A stretch of DNA of 64,000 nt from Zarea fungicola. Its lineage: Eukaryota; Ascomycota; Sordariomycetes; Hypocreales; Cordycipitaceae. A program made the position numbers and the translations under genes. This document shows positions 1-64,000 of the stretch, piece by piece (position 1 is the first letter of the stretch; each line of letters begins with the position of its first letter). The notes under the pieces were generated by a model. It saw only the letters and a program-made list of their open reading frames with translations. It was not told where the DNA came from and did no database searches. The stretch lies in contig FWCC01000348.1 of NCBI GenBank assembly GCA_900169235.1, forward strand, positions 1-64,000, in the 5' to 3' direction.

Positions 1-1018
1 TTCCTTTTTTTTTTTTTTCGTTTTTTGTAATTCCAGCACTGGCAAAATATTCCAGACTGGTGGTCGTTCGAGCGCTGGCAACATCTCATCCTGTTGTGGC
101 GGCGTCACAAACTACGCGGAAAGCGCCAAACTCGCTACACATCTTTCTAAGCTTAGCTGTACCGCAATATTTCAAGACAGTCGCATTTAATCTTTAGTTT
201 CTTCAAAGTATTCCAGCTCTGCTGCTGCTCAAAGTTGCATCATTCAGCCTCTGCTGCAAGGACTGGCTCTAATCGCCTCTCTACTAGGTTGGTGTCCGAA
301 GCCCAATTGAAAAGAAGTAAAGTAGAGGCAGAAGTTTGCTAATTAAGTTTAAATATTTAAAACTGTATTTTAATAGAGAAATCTCTCAAATTGACCATTG
401 AATCGGTCCTCTTCGGCTCTCAATGCGTCAATAGATGCTTCGAGCTTACGGCTCATGTTATGAAACTGACGCGCCGTCGATGACAGTCTAGAACGCTAAC
501 ACGATAATAGGATTAATAAAGTACGGCAAAGCTCATCCATTCTTCGAGCTCTGGTCGTTTCCCCGACTGGAGTGGATGGTCGGCACTCGGCGACAACATC
601 GCCGACGCCATGGGAGGCATTTGGTCTCCATTAACAAAGCCGACTCCGTACCTTTCCATGTTCCGCCCATTGTACCCTGGGGTGTGCCGCTAAGACTGGT
701 CTAGCCTTGTCGGCCTCATTACCTTGCAACTTGGCTGCTGATGCATTGTCACAGCTTTGCACTCTCCCCCATGGAATAGCCGCGGAAAAACTAGGCGGTT
801 CCTTAATGCCACATTCTACACAGCTGCTAGTACCGTTACATCGGCAGGTAATACTCCATGAGCCCGATGAATAGGATAATTAGTGAATATTACATGAATG
901 GCACATCAGAACTACTTTATTACCGGGCCGTCTCAACTACTTCACCTTCGATAGAGACGTTTATGCAATCCACACTGCTGAAAGTTTGTATATAGCTGCG
1001 GACGTTTCTTTCCCCATC
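1..1018. other. Left-edge non-coding stretch
   Basis: No supportable gene. The sequence opens with a T-rich run and has no long open frame on either strand. The last few hundred bases presumably hold the promoter of the amidohydrolase gene that starts at 1019. Confidence 0.5.
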
Positions 1019-26331: not shown

Positions 26332-29193
26332 GCCGCACCGGGTAAGCTCACGACCGGCAGACTACGTGCATCCTCATTAACGGCAAGCAGAACGACCAGA
26401 AACGCCGCCGAGCGCATCGATCCTAATTCCGTTCGCCCCCGATGAAGACTTTGTTAAACGAGACGATATAATCGAGAGGATCGAAGCAAGACTTGGCCGA
26501 CCAGGTTCGTGTGTTGCGCTCGTCGGCGTTGGCGGCGTTGGGTAGGTAACAGAGAGCACTACGCTGCAGGATTAGCGTCTGACCTTTGAAGCAAATCACA
26601 ACTTGCCATCGAATACGCATATCTCGTCCGAAAGCGTTCTTCTGATACATGGGTCTTTTGGATTCATGCAAGCAATAGCGCTCGGTTTGAGGAGGGCTTC
26701 CGAGCGATTGCGACCCGTATCAAGGTGCCTGGTCGGCATGACCCGAATGCCAATATATTTCAGCTCGTCCATGATTGGCTTCAAGACCAGAGAAAAGGGC
26801 CTTGTGTTATTATTCTCGATAACGTGGACAATGCGAGCTTCTTGAAGCTGCTCCCCTCCAATGATGAAGCCGCGGCGACGACAAGGACTGCTACCCCAAG
26901 GCAGCTAATATCGTACATCCCTTGCTGCCAGCATGGATCTGTTCTTGTCACATCACGAAACAGAGACGCTGCACTAGCGCTGGTCGAGCACGCTAATATT
27001 CTTGCTGTTGAGCCGATGAATGAGGAATCTGCACTAAAGCTTTTCCAGAATAAGCTCGGTCAGAATGACGACGAAGCTAGTACGTTCGAGCTTGCTGCCG
27101 CGCTTGAATATATGCCACTAGCTATCGTTCAGGCAGCGGCCTACATTGTGCAGAGGCGTCCACGATGCTCTGTACAAAAGTATCTGGATGAATTCTCCAA
27201 TAGTGACAGGAGGAAAACAATGCTTCTTAGTGTCGAGGGGGGAGAACTTCGTCGAGACGCCGAAGCCAAAAACTCCATCTTACTCACATGGCAAATTAGC
27301 TTTGAATACATTCGCGAAATCAGACCATCAGCGGCCGACTTGTTGTCGCTCATGAGCTTCTGCGATCGTCAAGGTATTCCGGAATGTCTACTGCGTGGCC
27401 AAGACAGCTCTACGAGCAGCGATAGCAGCGATGGTGGAGAGATCGAGGACCACGGAACCAACCATTTGGACCTTGAAAATGATTACAGTGAGGGTACTAA
27501 TGAGGATGGGAGTGTTGATTGTGAGAGAGCCAACGACAGCGATAGCGAGTGGAAGGAACGGCAATCCAATTATACCGACGATGACAGCTTTGAAACTGAC
27601 ATCATAACACTGCGGAATTTCTGCTTCATCAATGTTAATGAAGATGGTGTCACTTTTGAGATGCACAGATTGGTGCAGTTTGCTACAATTACATGGCTCA
27701 GAGCGAGAAAGATCTACAAGAAACAACGGCACCGGTTTCTTAGAAAGCTGTGCGAAGAACTTCCAGCCGGCGAGTACGAGAACTGGCCAAAATCGCAGGT
27801 GCTTTACCCACATGTAGAATGGGCTACCTTACAACCCCAACCAGGAAAGGAATCAATGAGAGAATGGGCTATCATCCTGTGTAGGGCGGCACAATATACT
27901 ATTCTCAAGGACAAAGAAGAGGCACTGGAACTATCGATTCGGGCGATGGAAGCAATGAGTCAGATTTATGGTGAAGAGCATAACAATGTGCTTTGTTCAA
28001 AATCGTTAGTGGCCACGGCGTATATGCTAAGAGGTCATTGGGGTGAAGCAGAGAAGTTTACGGTAGAGGTGATGGAAAGTTCGAAGAGGATACTTGGGGA
28101 AGACCACCCTACTACGCTGACTATGATGACTGACATGGCATGGATATACTTGAGACAAAGCCATTTAGGGGAGGCAGAGAAGTTATGTATGCAGGTGGTG
28201 GAGATGACGAAGATAATGTTTGGGAATGACCACCTCAAGACGCTGCACAGTATGAATAACCTGGCATTTACATACTATAAACGAGGCCGTTTAGAGGAGG
28301 CGGAGAGGTTACAAATTCAGGTAATGGAGAGGAGGAAGATAATGCTTGGAGAAGAGCATCCTCATACGCTGACCAGTATGGGTAACCTGGCATTGACATG
28401 CTATAAACAAGGCCATTTAGGGGAGGCAGAGAGGTTACAAATGCAGGTAATGGAGAGGAGGAAGATAATGCTTGGAGAAGACCATCCTCATACGGTGGCC
28501 ATTATGGGTGACCTGGCACTGACATTTAGTGGTCAAGGCCGTTTTGGGGAGGCGGAGAAGGCTTTCAAGCAGGTAATAGAGAGGAACAAGATAAAGCTTG
28601 GAGAAGACGATCCTCATACGCTGGCCAGTATGAGTTACCTGGCATGGACATTAGGTTGTCAAGGCCGTTTGGAGGAGGCGGAGGATCTTGAGTTACAGGT
28701 ACTGGAAAAGACGAAGACGAGATTCGGGCGACATCATCCATCTACACAACTCAGCATGAGCAAGGTGTTGATCTATACATCCCAGGGCCAGGAAGAGAAG
28801 GCAAAGAGACTTGAGGAACAGCTGCTAGAGAGCTACAAAGTTACTCTCGGAGAAAATCACCCTGATAAGCTGGATAGCATCGCAAATCTGATAGGGGCTT
28901 ACGTGAACCAGGTCCGGCTAGAGGAAGCAGTACAGCTGAGTGTGCAGCTGCTCGAGATGCGGAGGACGACGTTCGGCGACAGCCATCCCGATACGTTGAT
29001 GGCTATGCATGACTTGGCTTTGATATTAGGAGAACTTGGCCGTTCTCCTGAAGCATTTGAATTATGGAGTTGCTGCATCTCTCTTCGCCGGCGTGTACTT
29101 GGCCCGCAGCATCCAGACACTCAAGAATCAGTGAATTTGATGGAAGAATTGCAGAAGAAGGTGACTAGTACCGTTGCAGAAAATAGTTCTTAG
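26245..29193 (+). CDS. NOD-like receptor: amyloid-like motif, NB-ARC, nine TPRs
   Basis: Three exons: 26245-26341, 26391-26541, 26592-29193, with introns of 49 and 50 bp (GTAAGC...CAG; GTAGGT...AAG). The total is 949 residues. Residues 1-29 carry the short motif NSGFEAGTING, then ERPETPP. The second intron splits the P-loop (GVGGVGKS, residues 78-85). NB-ARC continues with WVFWIHASN, Walker B VIILDNVD (155-162), sensor VLVTSRNRD, YMPLAIVQAAAYI (GLPL-like) and MHRLVQ (MHD-like, from residue 440). An acidic insert occupies about 354-419. Residues 551-927 are nine TPR units of 42 residues (one of 41). It is a cytosolic sensor. By analogy with HET-S/NWD2 and the PP-motif pairs, ligand binding would oligomerise it so that the N-terminal motif templates the same motif of the adjacent PNP protein. 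Confidence 0.9.
27994..29124 (+). repeat. Nine tandem TPR units, about 126 bp each
   Basis: In-frame 42-residue TPR units of the form ..NLA..Y..QGHLGEAE.L..QVME.RK..LGE.HP.TL. Units 3 and 4 (about 28246-28497) are nearly identical over long stretches of DNA, which suggests recent duplication or gene conversion, as reported for fungal NLR repeat domains. Confidence 0.9.
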
Positions 29194-45574: not shown

Positions 45575-46495
45575 TAATAGTTCAGTTCCTCCCGGCTGCC
45601 GATCTGCTTACCGAAATGCCAATTTGGTATATTGCTCCTTTCATCTAAGGGACAAGGTTATCGCCAGAATACTAACGCGCTATCAATTACCGGTCCAAGT
45701 CGTGTAGCAGGTATCTCTATGACTCTGTATCATTTGTCAGCTCTTGGCAATGAATCCATGATCTATCAGGTGGAACTGTGGCGGTGGAAATAGCCCCGAG
45801 ACATTATTCTGGATCCCGAGGCTTGAAGTAGCCTCGGGTAAGCATCATGGGAACAGGGCTTCAGCTATATCTACACAGTTCCTTGTCAGTTTTGGTGTTC
45901 TCCTACAGATGAGAAGGTGCCTGCATCCCAGTGGCCTTTAAGTGTACCCAGCCAGCATTGCTAATGCTTCCGATCATGCTAGGCACCAATACTTGGAACC
46001 ATAGGTTTGTTGTATTCATGTCCAATAGATGGTCCACTCTGTACGGAGTGCCTGCAAGCACATAAGTAACTATCGACATTGGTTTAGCTTCTGAAGCTAT
46101 GAAACTGCATAATACATCCTCTGACTTGTCATGGTACCCGGATGGCATCATTATTCTGCAGATTTGGCAAATGAGTCGTCACACGCTGCGGTGGCCATGA
46201 TGCTGCCAAAACATGTTGATGCAGAAGTATGCACGTAGCAATCGGAAATTCTGCGATCGATCGGAACCATTTGTGCTACTAAGCTCTAAATATATTTTAT
46301 GTCTGCATGTCGCCGACCATAAAGAGTAGATAGCAGGGAAAACATAAATAGCTATAAGCAGGCAATACTTCACAGTTCTAAACAATAGATATTTCATCTC
46401 ATCTGCGATATAATATTGTAAAGTTATAGCTTGACTTTTTAGTCTATTACAAATAAGGCCCTTCTCGAAGTCTCCATCAGCTTCCAAGTTTACCA

Positions 46496-47271
46496 ATGGC
46501 AATTCCAGCTATTGCAAGAGATATTAACCAGGAGCAAGTATTCAATCAAAATGACCACCTAGATATCCTTGCTATGGTATCCGACGTCGAAATTATTTCT
46601 TCACCAAACCTCTCTCACTTTCTCGAACCACCGTTAGTAGAGACTGGCTGCGGCTTTAACACATGCCCTACCCAAAATGACGGCTATGCTCTATTGCTTG
46701 ATCCGCGAAGTCCACGGAATCCACCAAGTTCAGCCGATACCTCCACCTATTCTACTACGAACCTCGACACTATTCTGCAAACGCCTTTAAATTATAGCAT
46801 TAAAGGTCCTGCTTTAGAGAAAAATATGGTATCCGATGGCCGTCCATTGAGGGGGACCTCGATCTCAAGCCCAAGTAGTAGAGCCCCGGCCAAATTTACG
46901 CTGGAAGAAGATCAGCTTATTTTACGTTTACGGGGCGATGGTCGAACTTGGAAACAAATTGCTACAAAGCTGCCTCGACGATCACCTGGCGCACTCCAAG
47001 TACGATTTAGTACCAAGCTGAAGTTTAAATCAATTATCGGCAGGACAGACATTGTATGTGCATTTCGGCGTGAGTAAAATACCCTCTTCGCAGCAACAGA
47101 AGCTAATTAACAAGCGATAATCAGGATCAGCAAATAGAGAATGCTCTATTAAAGTATGAGCAGCAGCAGTGGATATTTGTGTCGACACAACTTGGCGGCG
47201 GTATTAGCCCCAAAGAATGCCGAGAACGTTCATTCGGCAAATTCAGATTAGAATTAACTTATATTAAATAA
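46496..47271 (+). CDS. Two-repeat Myb/SANT-like DNA-binding protein
   Basis: Two exons, 46496-47053 and 47125-47271 (71-bp intron, GTATGT...CAG, branch GCTAATTAAC), giving 234 residues. The first about 125 residues are Ser/Pro/Asn-rich and disordered. A Myb-like repeat follows (KFTLEEDQLILRLRGDGRTWKQIATKLPRRSPGALQVRFSTKLK), with the expected spacing of aromatic and helix-turn-helix residues. The second exon supplies a weaker repeat (DQQIENALLKYEQQQWIFVSTQLGGGISPKECRERS). Small fungal Myb proteins of this kind are presumed nuclear transcription factors. It lies 1.6 kb from the RiPP precursor in AT-rich DNA; involvement in that cluster is speculative. The stop comes right after the second repeat. 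Confidence 0.65.
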
Positions 47272-48902: not shown

Positions 48903-49241
48903 TTAATACTCCTCATCCTCACTCTCAGACCGCTTGCCCCAGCCAACTGGCATAAAGTACAGAATATCAGGGTTACCGTTGGCATGCACGGCCTCGCCCG
49001 CCGCATTCTCTTCCGAACGCTTGCCCCAACCAGCGCTGTTGAAGTATAAAATATCAGGGTTGCCGTTGGAACGCTTGATCTCGCTCGCCGCATTCTCCTC
49101 GGAACGCTTGCCCCAGCCCACTGGCATAAAGTACAGAATATCGGGGTTGCCGTTGGCCCGCTCATCGACGCTGTCTGTGCCCACGGGCACGGCGAGGGCG
49201 CTGCCAAAGAGCGCAAGGGCGACGGGGACGAAGAACTTCAT
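48903..49241 (-). CDS. Secreted, Kex2-processed repeat precursor peptide (dikaritin-type RiPP precursor)
   Basis: Single exon, 112 residues. A signal peptide (MKFFVPVALALFGSALA, residues 1-17) is followed by three 29-residue-period units. Each contains a core NGNPDILYF(MPV or NSA)GWG followed by Lys-Arg (ends at residues 46, 75, 104) and an acidic spacer (SEENAASEI, SEENAAGEA, SESEDEEY). An extra Lys-Arg at 56-57 frees the second unit from its spacer. This is the architecture of UstA-like precursors (ustiloxin, phomopsin, asperipin, epichloecyclins): secretory entry, Kex2 cleavage, and Tyr-containing cores that are oxidatively cyclised. Two DUF3328/UstYa genes nearby support that reading. The cores of units 1 and 3 are identical; unit 2 differs at three residues, so two related products are expected. 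It does not resemble Sordariomycete alpha-pheromone precursors, whose cores are Cys/Trp-rich. Confidence 0.85.
   Translation of the reverse strand: MKFFVPVALALFGSALAVPVGTDSVDERANGNPDILYFMPVGWGKRSEENAASEIKRSNGNPDILYFNSAGWGKRSEENAAGEAVHANGNPDILYFMPVGWGKRSESEDEEY
48930..49154 (-). repeat. Three tandem 87-bp units encoding RiPP cores
   Basis: Residues 30-104 of the precursor; period 29 codons. Unit 2 replaces the MPV codons with NSA. Flanking spacers diverge more than cores, pointing to selection on the core. Confidence 0.9.
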
Positions 49242-50348
49242 TGTCAAGCCTTGAAGATGTTTCTTTCGTTTAATAGATTTATGATGGTATGAAATTTCCG
49301 TTGGTGCTGAGACTACAACTCTTGGACAGACGGGGTACTGCCGGCTTCTATATCTAGAAGTACCTCCCAGTTGGTGAACTGCCTCGACCACGCAGGATCT
49401 GGAAGCGCAACGTTACAAATACAACTACTGCAGGGAATGAATGACATGTAACGCACTCTCTGCACCTTGGAATAGAATTGTGACGTCTCTTCTGCCGTAT
49501 ACATTACCGGAGTTTACCAGTCTGGGAAAGCGGCGACAAATCAGACAGCTTCCGGTCACCCGTGCTTGTCTACTGATTCTGAATTAAGCTCAGCTTCCGA
49601 GTCAACTCTTGAAAATCTCTTTGGAGCAATTTTTGCCTATAATGTATGAGTTGGCCTATATTGCGGTGGTGCATGCCATTCACGGCAGACATTTTACGAA
49701 GTAGCAATCTAACGCTCAACTTTGGCCCTCACCATGCACACCAATTGCCAATTCAAAATCATAAATATTCAATCGAGGCACATTAGATCTGCATCTCTAA
49801 AAGTACATCTAAACTTTCTAGTCGCAGCAGCAGTCCTGTGACTACCATCGGGTCCGCGTCAGCACCCATATTGTTGCAACCCCGCCAGCAAGGCTCGCAT
49901 GTTGTTACCCCCCGCACGCCAAGCTTCCTGCAATCTTTCCCCATGACTGCCGGTGAAACGGAGATCCGGAAATATTTGACGCAAAACGAATCCCATGTCG
50001 TATTCTCAACTCTCCGCCAATCCAGTCAATGTAGATCCCTTCTTCTTCCCAAGCGGTGGGCCTGCCCGCTCGGCGTTAACCTTGGCGGCTTGGCATGCCG
50101 ACATAGTATGCCCGCCTACATTTCGTGCTTTTCCTCAACAAGATATCGCCGTTGTCAGTGAAAATATGTAACGTTTGGGGGATCCTTTGGACTACGGGAA
50201 CACGTCACATACATGGGCTTGTCCCTCACTTCAACACAGGAAGAAGGAAGCGGCCTAGCCTGCCGAGGCTCTGCGACTACAGAACACTCTCCAAAATGCC
50301 CTGTCACTGTACGATTTGAATCTTTAACCTACATCACAGCGTTTTGAA
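49242..50348. promoter_or_regulatory. Divergent intergenic region of the RiPP cluster
   Basis: 1.1-kb head-to-head spacer between the precursor (minus) and the first UstYa-type gene (plus). It should contain both promoters and any cluster-specific regulator sites. Short open frames here have no recognisable protein. No operator is identified. Confidence 0.5.
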
Positions 50349-51290
50349 ATGTTTGGTTCTCTTCCTCGCAAAGCGGATGGCAGGGCATCTAGCCCAGCTT
50401 CAGATGAGGTACCATTCCTGGCCGACGAGGAAAAGGACGGCTTTGGCCTGCCACAATCGCCCCCTCGACGCAAGATATGGACAACTTGGCCGCTTTATTC
50501 TGTCTTTTTCAACTTTTTACTATTACTCATTGTTGTGAGCAATTGGAGAGTACTTGGGCTTGACCCCAATAGGGCTTATATCCCCAATGAGATATACTGC
50601 AAGTGACCAGAGCCCGAACCTGCATCGAGATGAAAGCAGCTGACATCTTTCAAGCACCGGCGCAGTCAGCTGTAGAATACAAGACTGTCCTTTTTACTGG
50701 TGGCCTCAAGGGAGACACTTCTCCGTACATGGGCTCATCCAAGGCGGTAGATGAAAAATGGAATGAGCTGTACACCGGTATGTGAGGGCTCATGCACTCT
50801 TACTCGAAGGCAGCCCCCAGACTAAAAGAACATCTTGCTTGTAGAAGCCGCAGTTTCTCAAATTGATGCAGAGATGGCGGCCAAGCTCCCCAACGCCACC
50901 ACGCCATTCAACGACGACCCAACGCACTACGTCGTCACCATTGACGTCTTCCACCAGCTTCACTGCCTCAACATGATGCGCAAGCTCGTCTACCCAGGCA
51001 TCTACCCGATGGACCTGACCTCTGGGTCGGACAAGAGCAACGATACCATTGTCCACTTTGAGCACTGCTACGAGCAGCTCCGCCAGTCGCTGCAGTGCCA
51101 CTCTGATGTGAGCACCATCTTTTGGGAATGGAGCGAGAGGAGGAATAGGTACCTGGGCAACGCGCACACCACGCACACGTGCAAGGATTTTGAAAAGATA
51201 CGTCAGTGGGGGATTAGAAACAAGAAGCAGAGAGACCTGGACTTTTTCAAAAAGGCCAAGGGGGCGCCGATATACAAGGATGTAGATTAA
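50349..51290 (+). CDS. UstYa-like DUF3328 oxidase, copy 1
   Basis: Three exons: 50349-50598, 50655-50777, 50845-51290, totalling 272 residues. The first intron (50599-50654) has a GC donor (GCAAGT) and AAG acceptor with branch GCTGAC. Only this splice yields the family's Y-S-P-A-x-x-A-V-E-Y block in frame; the second intron is GTATGT...TAG. There is a cytosolic N-tail, one membrane helix (about 47-64), and a lumenal domain with the two diagnostic motifs HQLHC (161-165) and HFEHC (195-199) plus QSLQCHSD. UstYa-type proteins are secretory-pathway oxidases thought to use the HxxHC histidines for a metal. They form the cyclising ether or C-C links in dikaritin RiPPs. It is divergent from the precursor and tandem with copy 2. 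Confidence 0.9.
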
Positions 51291-51888
51291 CCATATAAAG
51301 ATACCAATTTTGAAACAGGCTCAAACTAGAAGAATAGCAAAGAGTGTAATGAGATCTTTGTATTCTAATTTATGTACATAATTCTATACTTGGAATTTTT
51401 AAAACTAGTTTTGCCTTTTCAACAATAGTCGTTTCTTCGAGACGTCTCCAACGGTACGTTGAGGAGCAGCGAAATATTGCCGCTACTCTCCATACTTGCA
51501 TGGGAGGAGGATTGCAGCAGTATCATGCGGGGATGATGCGACCAGGTGGACTACGGCAACTTGCAGTGGAATCAATGAAACGAGAGAGAGCGGCAATATC
51601 CGAAGAGAGACTCGGCCGAATGCATGTAACCTTACAGCCAAGCATCAGGATCCATCGTGGCGCATTCAAACAAGGCTTCGATGGCAGGTAGTAATTCAGG
51701 CTCGCATGCAACGAGAATACAGCAGCCTGATAGTGCGTTATGGGACGGGCGAAATCCACTCTATTCTACTCAACTAGAAACGCCAGTCAACAGCAAGTTG
51801 ATGTCGATATTCTGTCGTGTTGGATCTCATTTTTACCAGAACTTTTTTTAACAAAAAAAAAACAGCTCCATCAATTTTCCAGGAGAAT

Positions 51889-52862
51889 ATGAACGGAGAG
51901 CACGGGCTGACCCGAGGCGGGGAAAGGGCAGACTCGCTGGACACTGAGAGCCTTCTCAGCCAGGAGCACCGGTCGGAGAAGCAGCTACTGCAACCTCTAG
52001 TCTTGACGACGAGGGCGAAGCGAAACAGGCGGATTAAAATATGGCTGCATGCTGCCGCATTGGTATTCTACAGTGTCCTGACAATTGTGCTGTATACGTG
52101 GAGTTTGCGGTTGCGCACGGTGCATGGCAGCGACCGCGTTTCCCGGTGCGAAATAGGCATGATATCGTGTAAGTCAAACTCAGAGCTCTATGCTGGGATG
52201 AAGTGCGCGGCTGATGAGAGAGGATCCATGCTTCCCCGTAGCACCCGCGCAAGAAGCAGTGGAGTACGAGCAGAGGGTCATAACACACAATCTCGACGAC
52301 CCAAACAGCAAATACAGAGGTGCGCCGAGTCCCGCCGTCGACGCAGCGTGGGACGAGCTCCTCCAATGTATGTGTATTCGTTAAAAGTCCAGAGCTCTAG
52401 AGATTAACACGGGGACGAACAGACAACAACCTCCGGGCGTACGAAGACGAGCTGCGCGCCGCCAACATGACGTCGGTGCCGCTTCGCGACGACAAGGGCG
52501 GCTACCTGGTGACGCTCGACGTGTACCACACGCTGCACTGCGTGAACCGCGCGCGCAAGGCCCTGTACCCGGCGTACTACACAAGTCCCAACAGGCCCGA
52601 GGTCGACCGCGCGCACGTTGAGCACTGCCTCGACCTCCTGCGGCGGGTCCTCATGTGCCACGGCGACGTCGCGCTGCACACTTACCAGTGGCTCGAGGAC
52701 CGGGCCGCCCCATGGCCGACGTTTCAGACGACGCACCAGTGCAGGAAGTGGGAGCGCATCGTCGAGTGGTCCAAGGGGAGAAACACGGGGTCTCTGCTTG
52801 GGCCCATCTTGCAGCATCCGACACTGGGGATATCATACTCCGACGAGGGGCAGCATCTATAG
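51889..52862 (+). CDS. UstYa-like DUF3328 oxidase, copy 2
   Basis: Three exons: 51889-52168, 52242-52367, 52423-52862, with introns of 73 bp (GTAAGT...TAG) and 55 bp (GTATGT...CAG). The total is 281 residues. It has the same plan as copy 1: a polar N-tail, a membrane helix (about 51-72), the S-P-A-Q-E-A-V-E-Y block right after the first splice junction, HTLHC (171-175), HVEHC (200-204) and RVLMCHGDV. Both first introns interrupt the same site before the SPA block, so the two copies are ancient duplicates with conserved structure, although their sequences differ widely. Paired UstYa/UstYb enzymes are usual in dikaritin clusters. The ATG at 51889 is preferred over the further open frame because nothing upstream resembles the family. 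Confidence 0.9.
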
Positions 52863-54000: not shown

Positions 54001-55056
54001 ATGCCGGAAGCAAAAACTGTACTATTAACAGGGTAGGATCTTTAATACCAATGGCAGAGGAAGAATGAAGACTGATACTTTGGTGTCCAGATGTTCGAGC
54101 GGAATCGGCGAAGCATTGGCTAGAGAGTTTCAAACTCAAGGTATGCATTTACGGGAATGGCCACGATACGGACATTGCTAACAATAAACCTCTGCACCCA
54201 CTTACAGGATTCCATGTCATTGCAACCGCTCGCCGACCAGATAGCATTGCCCACCTTGCCGAGGCCGGCATGACGACGATCCCCCTCGATGTGACCAAGC
54301 AAGAGAACATCGTGGCCTGCGAGGCCGCCGTGCGCAAGATTACGGGTGGCAAGCTCGACGTGCTCGTGAACAACGCGTAACGCCCCCCCAACCCCCATTC
54401 CTACGTAATCCGTTGCACTCGCTAAAACCCATGCTTCTAGCGGTGTTTTGATCCGAGGCGCCCTGGCCGACGCAAACGAAGAACAAATGAATTACATCTT
54501 CAACACCAACGTCTTTGGCCTCGTGAGCACCGTCTCCGTCTTCCTCCCGCAGCTCATAGCCGCCAAGAGCGGCGTCATTGTCAACATCTCGTCCGCCTCC
54601 TCCGTCACGCCGCTGCCCTTCAAGGGCCTCTACGCCATGACCAAGGCGGCCCTCAACTCGTACGGCCGCACCCTCGCCATCGAGCTCGAGCCGTTTGGCG
54701 TGCGTGTCCTCACGTGTCCCACTGGCTACATCCAGACGCCCCTCGAGGCCAACGGCCGCGACTACGTGCCCGAGGGGAGCCTGTACAAGCCCATGGAGGG
54801 CAAGATGGAGGTGGGCGTGCCGCCGCGGCAGATGCCCGCGCCGGTGTTTGCGCGGCGCATCGTGCGCGAGGCGTGCAAGGCGCCGGCGTGGAAGATTGGC
54901 CCGTTTCGGATCAGCGGCATGGCGGAGTGGCTGTGGGTGGGCGAGATGGCGGCTACGGGACGCTGGATCAGCTGGATTGGGGAAGGGTTTATCCAGTACG
55001 GCATGAAGGGCGTTGTGAACTGGCCAGAGATAACGCGCACTCTTCTTGGGAAATAG
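54001..55056 (+). CDS. Short-chain dehydrogenase/reductase (AYR1-like)
   Basis: Four exons: 54001-54032, 54091-54140, 54208-54376, 54441-55056, with introns of 58, 67 and 64 bp; the third has a GTAACG donor. The total is 288 residues. It is a classical SDR: the TGCSSGIG cofactor loop is assembled across the first splice, with VIATARRPDSI after strand 2 (an Arg pair suggests NADPH), PLDVTK, LDVLVNNAG across the third splice, and the catalytic Ser (ISSASS), Tyr and Lys (YAMTKAAL). The C-terminal part has a hydrophobic region. Its closest recalled relatives are NADPH-dependent 1-acyl-dihydroxyacetone-phosphate reductases, but many biosynthetic SDRs look alike. It stands in the same orientation as the UstYa-like genes, so it could be a tailoring enzyme of the RiPP cluster. 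Confidence 0.85.
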
Positions 55057-56867: not shown

Positions 56868-59800
56868 ATGGGGTCTCAGACACAGATTCTCCTCAACGAG
56901 CTGAGTGTTGCCAGCTTGCCACAAGATCCCTTCCTGCCCGTCGACGGCCCATTCGGACCCGCGTTTCTCGACACCGAAGCGTGCATCTGCGCATTGCGAC
57001 GAGCGCCGCTGCAGAACCAGGTCGGCTGGCAATGTCTTGGCAATAAAACGGAGCTCGTGTACACCACCACCCGCGGCAAGTGGTTTCCCGCCACGGGCGG
57101 CTCAATAAATGTGAACAGCTCCGTGTCGGATGCGCAGAACCCGCCGGACACGACGCGGCCGCAGGTTTTCGACATCACCAAGGGCGCCTTTCAGTCGATT
57201 GGCAGCAACGACACGAGGCTCGACATTTTCTCCAACGCCTGCACTGGCCAGAACCAGACGACATTCTCCACAGCGTACTACCGATCGGTGACTGCGCTTG
57301 CGAACAATGCGGTGCCGGTCGATGCGGCGCCTTGTTTCCGGCCAGGCGCTGTCCCGCTCCAGATCCAGGCGGCGGATGACTGGCTTCAGTCGGGCTGTCT
57401 TCCTGGCTTCCTATGTAGGCCTCTCTACTTACATATCCAGACTTGGGAGAAACAGTGTCCTGTAGCTAACACCTTTGCGTTTTCTTAGGCGCGAATAATA
57501 CCGTCAACTCCCTCCCACAGTTTTGCCCACCAATTACACAATGCCAGCAGGCGCGATTGACAGGAAATGTATGTAGATTTGCAGGCTTCAACATTGGCAT
57601 GGGCCCCTTTGAGCCCGTCGTGTGTTTGCAGCGCAATTATTGCCCTCCCGGCGGTAAAGATATTTTCGCATGTCCCAAGGGCCATTACTGCCAGCCCGGC
57701 GCCGCCACCCCGACGCCGTGCAGCTTCGGCAGCATGTGCCCAGAGGGCTCGCAGTTTGAAGTCTTCATCATCCCCATCATCATCCTCATCGCCATCGATG
57801 TACTATTAGCCATCATCATTATATGGCACAAGATTGCGCGTCGATTCGGCAAGAAGCGTAGCAGCAGCGGCATTGGCGGCATAGTGGGAAAGCGAGGCCG
57901 CGGCCAAGGGCTCATGCGAACCATGACGCTCGGTGCGGCGGGCCGGTACGAGGGACTGGCGGACGAGACCGACTATCCCGAGATGGAAATGACGACGACG
58001 GTCCACGCGACGTACATTCCCGGCCACGACCCGTGGACCGGCTTCCAGGAGGCGCTGGACATGGCCACGGCGCAGGGCATGCACGTGGAGCAGCTCGAGG
58101 GCGAGAACGGGCTGTCGCCGCAGCTGCGCACCTTTCTCGAGTCGATGCGCAAGGCGACGGTCGACCAGCAGCAGCTCGGCCTGACGTTTAGCTACACCAA
58201 CCTGAGCTTCCAGCCGCGGCGCGCGCCCAAGCCCATCCTCTCCAACGTCAGCGGCTCCATCCAGCGCGGCTCCCTGGTGGCCGTCATGGGCGGCTCGGGC
58301 GCGGGCAAGTCGACGTTTGTCAATGTGCTCATGGGCAAGATTACCCGCACAAAGGGGCTGGTCGCCGTGAATGGCATCCCGGGACGCATCAGCCGGTACA
58401 AGAAAGTAATTGGCTACGTGCCGCAGGACGACATTGTGCTGCCCGAGTTCACCGTGTACGAGAACATCCTGCACTCGGCGCAGATCCGGCTGCCGCGGAC
58501 GTGGTCGCGCAACGACATTGTGGCGCACGTCAACGCCGTCATTGACTGCCTCGAGCTGTCGCACGTGCGCGACTCGCGCGTCGGCACCGTGGGGAAACCA
58601 ATCATCTCGGGAGGGCAGCGCAAGCGCGTGAGCATCGGCATGGAGCTGGCCGCCGCGCCCATGGCCATCTTCCTCGATGAGCCCACCAGCGGCCTCGACG
58701 CCACGGCCGCGGGGTCCATCATGAAGGCACTCCAGGCGCTGGCACGGCTGGGCATGACCATTATTGTAGTTATTCATCAGCCCCGCGTGGAGATTTTCGA
58801 GATGCTCGACAACCTGATCCTGCTCGCCAAGGGCCAGGTCATTTACGAGGGGCCCGAGGCGGGCGTGCAGCGCTTCTTTGAGAATGTCGGCTTCTCGTTC
58901 CCGCCCGGCAGCAACTACGGCGACGTGGTCACCGACATCATCACGGGCAACGGCCGGCCGTACAAGCGCAGCGGCGACATCTCCATCGAGTCCCTGATTG
59001 CCCACTGGCTCAGCTGCCGCGAGACCTTTGGCAAGGACACGGTGGGCGAGGACGGGCGCGCGTCCAAGCTCACCCTGCGCGAGACCTTTTTGCCCAAGAT
59101 GGACCGCGTGGTCTACCAGGTCCTCAAGACGCGCGGAGCCACCCGCTTCCGGCAGATGTGGCTGTGCTTCCGGCGCTCCATGGTGCAGCAGTACCGGACC
59201 AAGGGCCTGTTCTGGTTCGAGATGGGCCTGGCCGCGCTGGCCGGGTTCCTCATCGGCCTGGCCAACAATGGCAAGTCGGGCGTCATGTTCATCGGCTTCT
59301 ACAAGAAGCCCTTTGACGTGCTCTCCATCGCCACCGACCTCATCTCCGTCCCGCAGCTCGCCCTCCTGACCTGCATCGGCATCGGTCTCGTGTCCGCCGC
59401 GCCCGGCGTGCGCGTCTTCTCCGAGGAGCTGCTCCTGTACCGCCGCGAGGCCGAGGCCGGCCACTCGCGCATCGCGTACTTTCTCGCAAAGGTGTTTTCT
59501 GTCCTGCCGCGCATGGTCCTCCTGTGCCTGCACTTCACCACGCCCCTGATGCTGCTCGGCACGCCCATCATCGGATGGGGCATTACCTTTATTGCCAACC
59601 TCATGTATGTGTACGCGATTTACGGCCTCGCGAGCTGCGTGAGCATGGTGACCAAGCGCGAGGATGCGCCGCTCTTTGCGACCATGATCAGCCTCATTGT
59701 GGGCATCCTGTGCGGCGCGGCGCCGCCGCTCGCCCAGGTCAAGAGATGGGGCGTCGAGTGGCTCTGGCGGGCCTCGCCGGGCACATGGCTCGCGGAGCTT

Positions 59801-59980
59801 TACTTTGGGCAGCTGGTCGCGCCGTTTGGGTACTTGTATGATGTGGACTTGGCGAGCCAGATTACCGGCTTCAAGCTGTACTGGACGTGGCGCAATGTGA
59901 TTATTTTATTTGCGATTGGCACCATATATCGAGTCATTGCGTTTATTGGGTTGATTTATGGAAACAGGGTACGGTTGTAA
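56868..59980 (+). CDS. ABCG-type half-transporter with Cys-rich ectodomain
   Basis: Two exons, 56868-57414 and 57489-59980 (74-bp intron, GTAGGC...TAG, branch GCTAAC), giving 1012 residues. A Cys-rich extracellular N-terminal region (to about residue 270, with CPPGGKDIF.CP.GHYCQPGA) precedes a membrane helix (FEVFIIPIIILIAIDVLLAIIII) and a cytosolic linker. The nucleotide-binding domain follows: Walker A GGSGAGKST (450-458), signature ISGGQRKRVSIG (from 555), Walker B AIFLDEPTSGLD. The six-helix ABCG domain ends the protein. It is like yeast Adp1 and animal/plant WBC proteins with an ectodomain. No signal peptide is visible at the chosen ATG, so an upstream exon may be missing. It is a possible exporter for the RiPP, but such transporters also occur alone. 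Confidence 0.92.
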
Positions 59981-62617: not shown

Positions 62618-64000
62618 TCAAGCAGTCTCAAGTGTATTTATCCACTGTTCCCCGATTATGTTGGCCCAAATTGTCTCCTCCGAGGGAGGAAATATGGTGG
62701 TTGGTGTCGAAATAGGTGGAGGTGCACATATAGTCTTTGTCTGCAGTAGGTCGTTGGCAATCAGCTTGAGCTCTTTTATCATGCGCTTTGCCCGGGGCCA
62801 AATGTCCTCGTAGTGTTTTAGTGTCCCAAGCGTAACTCGAATTCGTGAACGTGCTGCACGCGTGTCCTCGGCGTCAAAGGCCACTTTGCAGGCGACAAGG
62901 TGGGCAATGGTGCAGCAGGCAATCATGCAGATGATAAAAGGCGATAGCTGCACAGCTCGTATGGGAAGCATTACGAGGCACTGGTTTTGTTTGCGAATTG
63001 CCTGGAACAGCTTTTCCGAGTGCATGTCGTGCTCGGGCGCGTTGATGAGATTGGTGTTGGTGTTTATTAACGGTGGGGGTGGCGGCCGGCAGCTCGACCG
63101 CTCTTCTGCAGAATCATACTGTAGGCTCGACAAAGGCCTGTGAATAAAAGCCAGAGAGCTAAGAGGTGTCAAATTTTTTGAATAACGGCGAAACAGAGCC
63201 AACGACTTGAAAAATGTACTCACGTGTGCATCATCATGTGTGCCTGGAACATGAGCTGGTCAGACACTGTCGATTTTACAGGGAGCTCGCGCAGCTTTTC
63301 CGGCAGCATCAAGAACCAACTAAAAATGGTGGCTTCCCAGTCGCTGCAGACTCTTTCGGCATGTGATATGCTTTCGTACTGGGTGGATGCCTGCAACGAC
63401 GCCAAGTATATCGAACTGGCCTCTATATAGTAGGCAAAGGAGGAGTACGTCTGCTCAACTATTGCGTATTCCCGGTTTTGATACTCTTCAAAGGAGGGGG
63501 ATGTTGTTGGGATATCCTGTGTCAAGGTCAGTCATGCCTCGAGGTCATGTCTTTATGCGCATACCAAGCGGTTGTATTGCGTTTCATCACAGGGCAGGTT
63601 GACCTCCTGGACGTGGCCGGCAAGGAACTGGTGAAAGTCCCAGCGGATAATGGCAAAATTTGTATCGACCAGATAAATCATCCACCAGGTGCGGCGCCAG
63701 CTCTCCGCGAGGACAGGATCCAGTCCGGCTGCGGAGTTGGCAAAGTCGCTCGTATTCATTCCTATACTTGTCGCCTGAGCAATGGCGAGGGCAAGCAGCT
63801 CACTGGCCCCGGTGATGTCGTCGCACATGCTCTTGGCCAGCGCCAGCAACAGTGTGGCTTGAACTGTGAAGCCGTCTACAACACCACCAACGCTGCCCAC
63901 AACGCTTTCATTTACAAATCTGCCGTCAACCAGGCCTTCGTACTCTTTGCTTTGGGGAGAGGACTCTCGATAGAATGAGCCGATGTATCGCATGACATTG
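62618..64000 (-). CDS. Fungal-specific transcription factor (partial, runs off the right edge)
   Basis: Three exons visible: beyond 64000 to 63565, 63516-63224, 63158-62618, with introns of 48 and 65 bp (GTATGC...CAG; GTGAGT...TAG). The visible part is the middle and C-terminus of a fungal_trans (PF04082-type) regulatory domain: SELLALAIAQATSIGMNTSDF, then LAESWRRTWWMIYLVDTNFAIIRW and the helical DWEATIFSWFLMLPEKLRELP segment. The C-terminal exon is helical with AHLVACKVAFDAEDTRAARSRIRVTLGTLKHYEDIWPRAKRMI. The N-terminal Zn2Cys6 cluster expected for this family lies outside the window. It is convergent with the MFS gene, 157 bp between stops. It may be the pathway-specific regulator of the neighbouring cluster. 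Confidence 0.85.

Follow-up and report, generated by a model that had tools for sequence, protein, structure and literature searches.

Fungal dikaritins (ust-RiPS) are ribosomally synthesised and post-translationally modified peptides (RiPPs) whose class-defining enzyme is a DUF3328 (UstYa) protein (PMC12048977). The original definition called for five genes, a tyrosinase and a methyltransferase among them, and tyrosinase-less clusters have been accepted since (PMC12048977). DUF3328 genes are also neighbours of 1758 of 7878 KEX2-processed repeat proteins (KEPs) (PMC7329392). Here we analyse the window, a stretch of 64,000 nucleotides from Zarea fungicola (GCA_900169235.1, contig FWCC01000348.1; C439:1-64000 in our numbering of an assembly of 43.1 Mb and 456 contigs), in which a KEP gene lies beside two DUF3328 genes, termed oxidases A and B (Table 1). 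With a probability of roughly three in four we read the three genes as a tyrosinase-less cluster of the dikaritin type, the core of which would be oxidised by A and B, most likely to a cyclic peptide, because the repeats of the precursor are kept at the protein level, two genes of Pfam family PF11807 lie within 4 kb, and the same trio recurs on a second contig, C230.

We group the cluster with asperipin-2a and not with ustiloxin and phomopsin because no tyrosinase match was found on C439 or C230; the nine matches in the genome are on six other contigs. Asperipin-2a likewise has a precursor with repeats ending in Lys-Arg (KR), a UstY oxidase, and no tyrosinase; its cross-link joins the Tyr oxygen to the beta carbon of Phe (PMC12186524, PMC12048977), and DUF3328 enzymes with a dicopper site make this link in vitro (PMC12186524). 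It differs in having one UstY gene instead of two, whereas the core here is of the form DILY-x4-GWG with an invariant Trp. Ustiloxin, phomopsin and POI2 (KEP type G-10) share with the present system a secreted KR-repeat precursor that holds Tyr and Ile, and ustiloxin also has two DUF3328 genes. However, their core is Tyr-x-Ile, while here Ile precedes Tyr, and ustiloxin and phomopsin require a tyrosinase (PMC7329392). KEP type G-6 comprises 49 KEPs, 46 of them with DUF3328, in genera including Cordyceps, Beauveria and Torrubiella (PMC7329392). By its text description, the only basis of our comparison, this type has several Asp residues against one in our core and its genera do not include Fusarium; it might nevertheless contain relatives of this precursor.

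Table 1. Positions of the three cluster genes, the repeats, neighbouring open reading frames (ORFs) and the second trio
Feature	Position	Strand	Description
Precursor gene (KEP)	window 48903..49241	-	Exact ends of the coding sequence 49241..48903; 112 amino acids, no Cys; single exon; from ORF and translation, homologues, and paralogue at C230
Repeat 1, GNPDILYFMPVGWGKR	window 49104..49151	-	Residues 31-46
Repeat 2, GNPDILYFNSAGWGKR	window 49017..49064	-	Residues 60-75; KR also immediately ahead of its SN
Repeat 3, GNPDILYFMPVGWGKR	window 48930..48977	-	Residues 89-104
Oxidase A (UstYa/DUF3328)	window 50349..51290	+	Exons 50349-50598, 50655-50777, 50845-51290; HQLHC and HFEHC
Oxidase B (UstYa/DUF3328)	window 51889..52862	+	Exons 51889-52168, 52242-52367, 52423-52862; HTLHC and HVEHC
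Myb-like ORF	window 46457-47077		
SDR ORF	window 54409-55056		
ABC transporter ORF	window 57470-59980		
Transcription-factor ORF	window 63553-63999		
Precursor paralogue	C230 153.4-154.0 kb		Seven DILYNN[GP]AGWG units
B paralogue	C230 151.8-152.7 kb		Other side of the precursor from A
A paralogue	C230 156.4-157.4 kb		

The precursor gene and oxidase A are divergently oriented, and B follows A on the same strand. The precursor has a hydrophobic N-terminus, judged by eye to be a signal peptide, and three cores, in order NPDILYFMPVGWG, NPDILYFNSAGWG and NPDILYFMPVGWG, with KR after every one. The units follow the pattern GNPDILY....GWGKR and start at residues 31, 60 and 89. A 15-mer is present three times in the protein (up to 3 mismatches allowed), against once in the best of 300 shuffles. 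Between repeats of 16 codons the synonymous and non-synonymous differences number 4 and 3, 4 and 0, and 5 and 3, respectively, which suggests that selection acts on the precursor protein. Since a KR stands immediately ahead of core 2 only, cores 1 and 3 would need some other trimming at their N-terminal ends; in a Z. fungicola relative core 3 is also preceded by KR, at the place of VH in the window precursor. Oxidases A and B match PF11807 far over the cut-off (E = 2.1e-43 and 3e-57, respectively), and their hand-spliced models are open, with three exons and two HxxHC motifs each. The first intron of A (50599-50654) is of the GC-AG type with a GCAAGT donor, at which place the C230 paralogue has GTAAGC. 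These features, namely a secreted repeat precursor with Kex2 sites and adjacent DUF3328 genes with two HxxHC motifs, are those of ust-RiPS. The original prediction, made from the letters of this DNA, had described a secreted precursor with three Tyr-containing cores ending in Lys-Arg and two tandem DUF3328 genes with paired HxxHC motifs within 4 kb; the translation and the PF11807 matches bear out both. Its assignment to UstA-type precursors with UstYa-like oxidases is well supported by the same matches, the repeat precursor, and the second trio.

A search of 5.8 billion proteins returned 17 precursor hits including the window's own; the 16 others come from Z. fungicola (82% identical to the window precursor), Cordyceps javanica (two), Torrubiella hemipterigena, Fusarium austroafricanum, F. 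oxysporum, F. lateritium, and nine further relatives. Together with the C230 paralogue, these 18 precursors contain 54 units of the form D-x-L-Y-x4-G-W-G. All 54 have Tyr, at one fixed distance from Trp, although the extraction pattern itself required D, L, Y and GWG; an alignment made without that pattern shows D, I, L, Y, G, W, G, K and R of the first unit unchanged in all 18 sequences. The number of Trp residues equals the number of GWG units in each protein, Ile is replaced once by Ser and once by Val among the 54 units, and the residue at Tyr+2 is M or N throughout the extracted units. The four interior residues separate two branches: FMPV or FNSA in the window, Z. fungicola, C. javanica and two more relatives; NNQA, NNPA, NNAA or NNGA in the other. 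On these alignments the core family is D-x-L-Y-x4-G-W-G, wider than the DILYF that the original prediction had taken as defining, which belongs to one branch only. Its statement that no described product has this core still holds for the literature text searched, in which the diagnostic core strings were not found; KEP surveys give their sequences in supplementary tables, which like the figures were outside that text, and the precursor may well be listed there. Of the proposed new cyclic peptide family, then, the novelty stands for the core, whereas the cyclic product is only inferred, as DUF3328 enzymes also hydroxylate and halogenate (PMC12435403). What is new with respect to that text is the core family; the arrangement of a KEP with DUF3328 genes was already known. 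With 1758 KEPs counted beside such genes, the class was known to be large, and the finding contributes one more core family to it.

The second trio, on C230 of the same genome, is strongly diverged and consists of a precursor flanked by paralogues of A and B. All pairs of its seven units sum to 142 synonymous and 18 non-synonymous codon differences. When the ORFs of at least 60 amino acids from 104 kb of C439 were compared with 29.8 kb of C230 by tblastn (E 1e-4), the matches were the precursor, A and B (with antisense frames) and a further UstYa gene at C439:91.8-92.5 kb, and no other. The original prediction would have been refuted by DUF3328 genes linked elsewhere to a different precursor, and the comparison went the other way: both oxidase types accompany a homologous precursor at C230 and, by metadata, in other species. 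The C230 A is closer to proteins of Thozetella (75% identity), Purpureocillium (72%) and Fusarium than to the C439 A (61%), and the C230 B is 97% identical over 167 amino acids to a Z. fungicola protein and 78% to one of Purpureocillium. Homologue searches gave 58 A-type and 10 B-type hits, of which 28 and 10, respectively, entered a tree of 42 rows with the four oxidases of this genome. Here A and B separate as two groups (100/100). The C230 B joins Zarea, Purpureocillium and Fusarium in one group (100/96), and the C439 B stands elsewhere, in a group with a support of 90/80; the C230 A appears as sister of the Cordycipitaceae group that holds the C439 A, with support that is not firm (85/86). 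Beside the C230 trio only there is a membrane ORF with HVTHC and HTSHC motifs (L035 9276..8563, minus strand), for which no Pfam match was obtained at 0.01.

In other species the linkage was read from contig sizes and locus tags. The C. javanica precursor V2A60_010364 and B V2A60_010365 share a contig size of 3,295,904; precursor and A share one of 136,486 in F. austroafricanum and one of 6,138,274 in F. oxysporum, the latter being weaker as the tags belong to different strains. A and B co-occur on contigs of 4,363 and 38,710 bases. If C439 and C230 are taken to set the scheme, core type and enzyme group agree in the three other cases out of three, admittedly a small number: the B of C. javanica (FMPV core) falls in the window B group (90/80), and the A proteins of the two Fusarium species (NNQA cores) fall outside the window A group (100/100). 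As far as these two scheme loci and three others allow, core and enzymes appear to diverge together.

The genome has at least 55 PF11807 matches, which merge into about 40 UstYa loci, and five close UstYa pairs (on C167, C230, C266, C360 and C439). Two UstYa loci within 3 kb of a random point would be expected at about 1.5e-5 (Poisson, 40 loci in 43.1 Mb, ignoring gene clustering). A described enzyme with which A and B can be compared is CctR of the cyclochlorotine pathway, with a single transmembrane helix, a lumenal helical domain, and paired HxxHC motifs that bind two coppers at the dimer interface (PMC12435403). The AlphaFold model of the A homologue of Akanthomyces lecanii (pLDDT 78.8) fits this description because it shows the same single transmembrane helix and paired motifs: residues 32-60 form a long hydrophobic helix, which we regard as the transmembrane one, and the HxxHC motifs lie on helices 150-164 and 179-201. 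Of the 58 A-type hits 32 were aligned, and the alignment keeps HQLHC, HxxHC, C201 and C229. CctR differs in being a hydroxylase of a non-ribosomal peptide, while A and B are tied to a ribosomal precursor. On this homology, both oxidases probably use a dicopper centre to act on the core. A search of the PDB by sequence with the A. lecanii homologue gave 0 matches.

Several results weigh against reading the locus as a cluster for a cyclic peptide. Foldseek with the A homologue model listed 95 matches at E<=10 and 0 at E<=0.001 (best E 0.67) and thus pointed to no solved fold, and the model of a B homologue was poor (pLDDT 47.9) and was not used. The A and B trees disagree on the placement of the C230 copies. 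The linkage in other species comes from metadata and not from DNA, and contig size ties no more than 3 of the 16 further precursor hits to an A or B hit. The cluster has no tyrosinase beside it and its core is not the Tyr-x-Ile of ustiloxin and phomopsin; lastly, DUF3328 members are implicated also in hydroxylation, halogenation and isomerisation (PMC12435403).

On balance we still favour the cyclic peptide, and its formation may be pictured as follows. The precursor would enter the secretory pathway, where Kex2 would cut after each KR. Removal of the KR and of the N-terminal residues up to N-P would then leave an 11-mer, DILYxxxxGWG; PMC6339444 gives the dipeptides X-A and X-P as signals for STE13. 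A and B, as single-pass membrane proteins whose paired HxxHC motifs, judging from the homologous CctR, would hold a dicopper centre, may oxidise the core in the Golgi or endosome (the late secretory pathway), perhaps working together. The likeliest outcome seems to be a side-chain bond that links the invariant Tyr to either the adjacent Ile/Leu or the equally invariant Trp. One could go further and imagine an A/B dicopper heterodimer joining Tyr to the Trp six residues on (Y-x4-G-W), each interior (FMPV, FNSA, NNQA, NNPA, NNAA or NNGA) having codiverged with its own enzyme pair, so that paralogous clusters in one genome would make two orthogonal rings; in this detailed form the proposal is tentative and, we think, rather doubtful.

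The strongest alternative, though still an unlikely one, is that A and B act on the core but close no ring, for instance by hydroxylation, dehydrogenation or halogenation of Ile, Leu, Tyr or Trp, and that the product is a decorated linear peptide. The other activities of DUF3328 members just mentioned favour it, as does the installation of dehydroamino acids by DUF3328 members, named in the title of a paper that PMC12186524 cites. Against it stand the constancy of Tyr and of its distance to Trp in all extracted units and in the 18 first units, and the occurrence of Tyr in 65.6% of the repeats of DUF3328-linked KEPs versus 38.2% in the rest (PMC7329392), because of which an invariant Tyr is as might be expected here. 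That the cores are released as unmodified linear signalling peptides, with the DUF3328 genes as accidental neighbours, we regard as quite improbable: 78% of KEPs do lack a DUF3328 neighbour (PMC7329392), yet two diverged loci both retain the trio, with only a UstYa gene otherwise matching around it, and the linkage extends by metadata to C. javanica and two Fusarium species.

More improbable again is a mating factor, even though the F. austroafricanum relative bears the UniRef name 'Mating factor alpha' and the precursor resembles KEPs at large, alpha pheromones included, in its secretory repeats between dibasic KR sites. Alpha pheromones have two conserved Cys (PMC6339444), whereas Cys is absent from all cores and from 17 of 18 precursors, the single exception sitting in the N-terminal extension of one relative; moreover, mating-factor and pheromone KEPs with few exceptions lack DUF3328 neighbours (PMC7329392). 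A search for a separate gene with the motif WCxxxGQxC gave 5 single hits, against 3 in the control, and 0 in a repeat protein. Finally, a mimic of insect adipokinetic-hormone-type neuropeptides (W-G then KR) made by insect-associated fungi can hardly be upheld: several relatives are indeed from Cordycipitaceae and Pfam Adipokin_hormo (PF06377) matches repeat 2 (E 6.8e-4), but at 20.5 bits against a cut-off of 22.9 and in the atypical repeat only, an unrelated DRMBL match lies equally below cut-off in the same scan, and GWGKR is common to the Fusarium relatives. The amidating-enzyme family PF03712 had no match in the genome and none in the controls either, so that its absence is not shown.

Because the family is compact (three genes), occurs in several genera of Hypocreales, and has two diverged copies with different ring-interior residues in one genome, it lends itself to studies of what DUF3328 oxidases recognise in the core and of whether each A/B pair is specific to its precursor. 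Exact masses are available to seek in culture extracts: the calculated [M+H]+ values of the linear core and of the core minus 2H are 1297.6285 and 1295.6129 for DILYFMPVGWG, 1242.5789 and 1240.5633 for DILYFNSAGWG and, from the C230 cluster, 1219.5742 and 1217.5585 for DILYNNPAGWG and 1179.5429 and 1177.5272 for DILYNNGAGWG.

As to the surroundings of the trio in the window, the Myb-like, SDR, ABC transporter and transcription-factor ORFs are possible but unsupported as cluster parts: in the comparison of ORFs of at least 60 amino acids, nothing beside the C230 trio corresponded to any of them, the ABC transporter ORF included. No methyltransferase family was found among 17 proteins scanned, which covered only some of the ORFs near the cluster. 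An Rfam scan of 44-56 kb in the window and a tRNA scan gave no match. A repeat scan for other precursors returned three rows (the window precursor, another frame of the same DNA, and one new), its filters having missed the C230 precursor. At C157:121512-123872 the ORF 524..231 (minus strand) encodes a KEP-like protein, in which three HKYSVSAKEADA-like units are bounded by KR sites, near a UstYa gene (C157:123012-123329) and a piece of a tyrosinase at the contig end (123776-123859); this is a third, different candidate RiPP cluster. At C43:18097-25254 a UstYa gene lies 6 kb from a strong tyrosinase match, as in dikaritin clusters that include a tyrosinase; the repeat scan, which had also missed the known precursor at C230, showed no precursor there. 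Elsewhere in the window a 126-bp tandem repeat occupies 28093-28683 within a long ORF (26590-29193), which by eye we take to resemble an NB-ARC/TPR-type protein.

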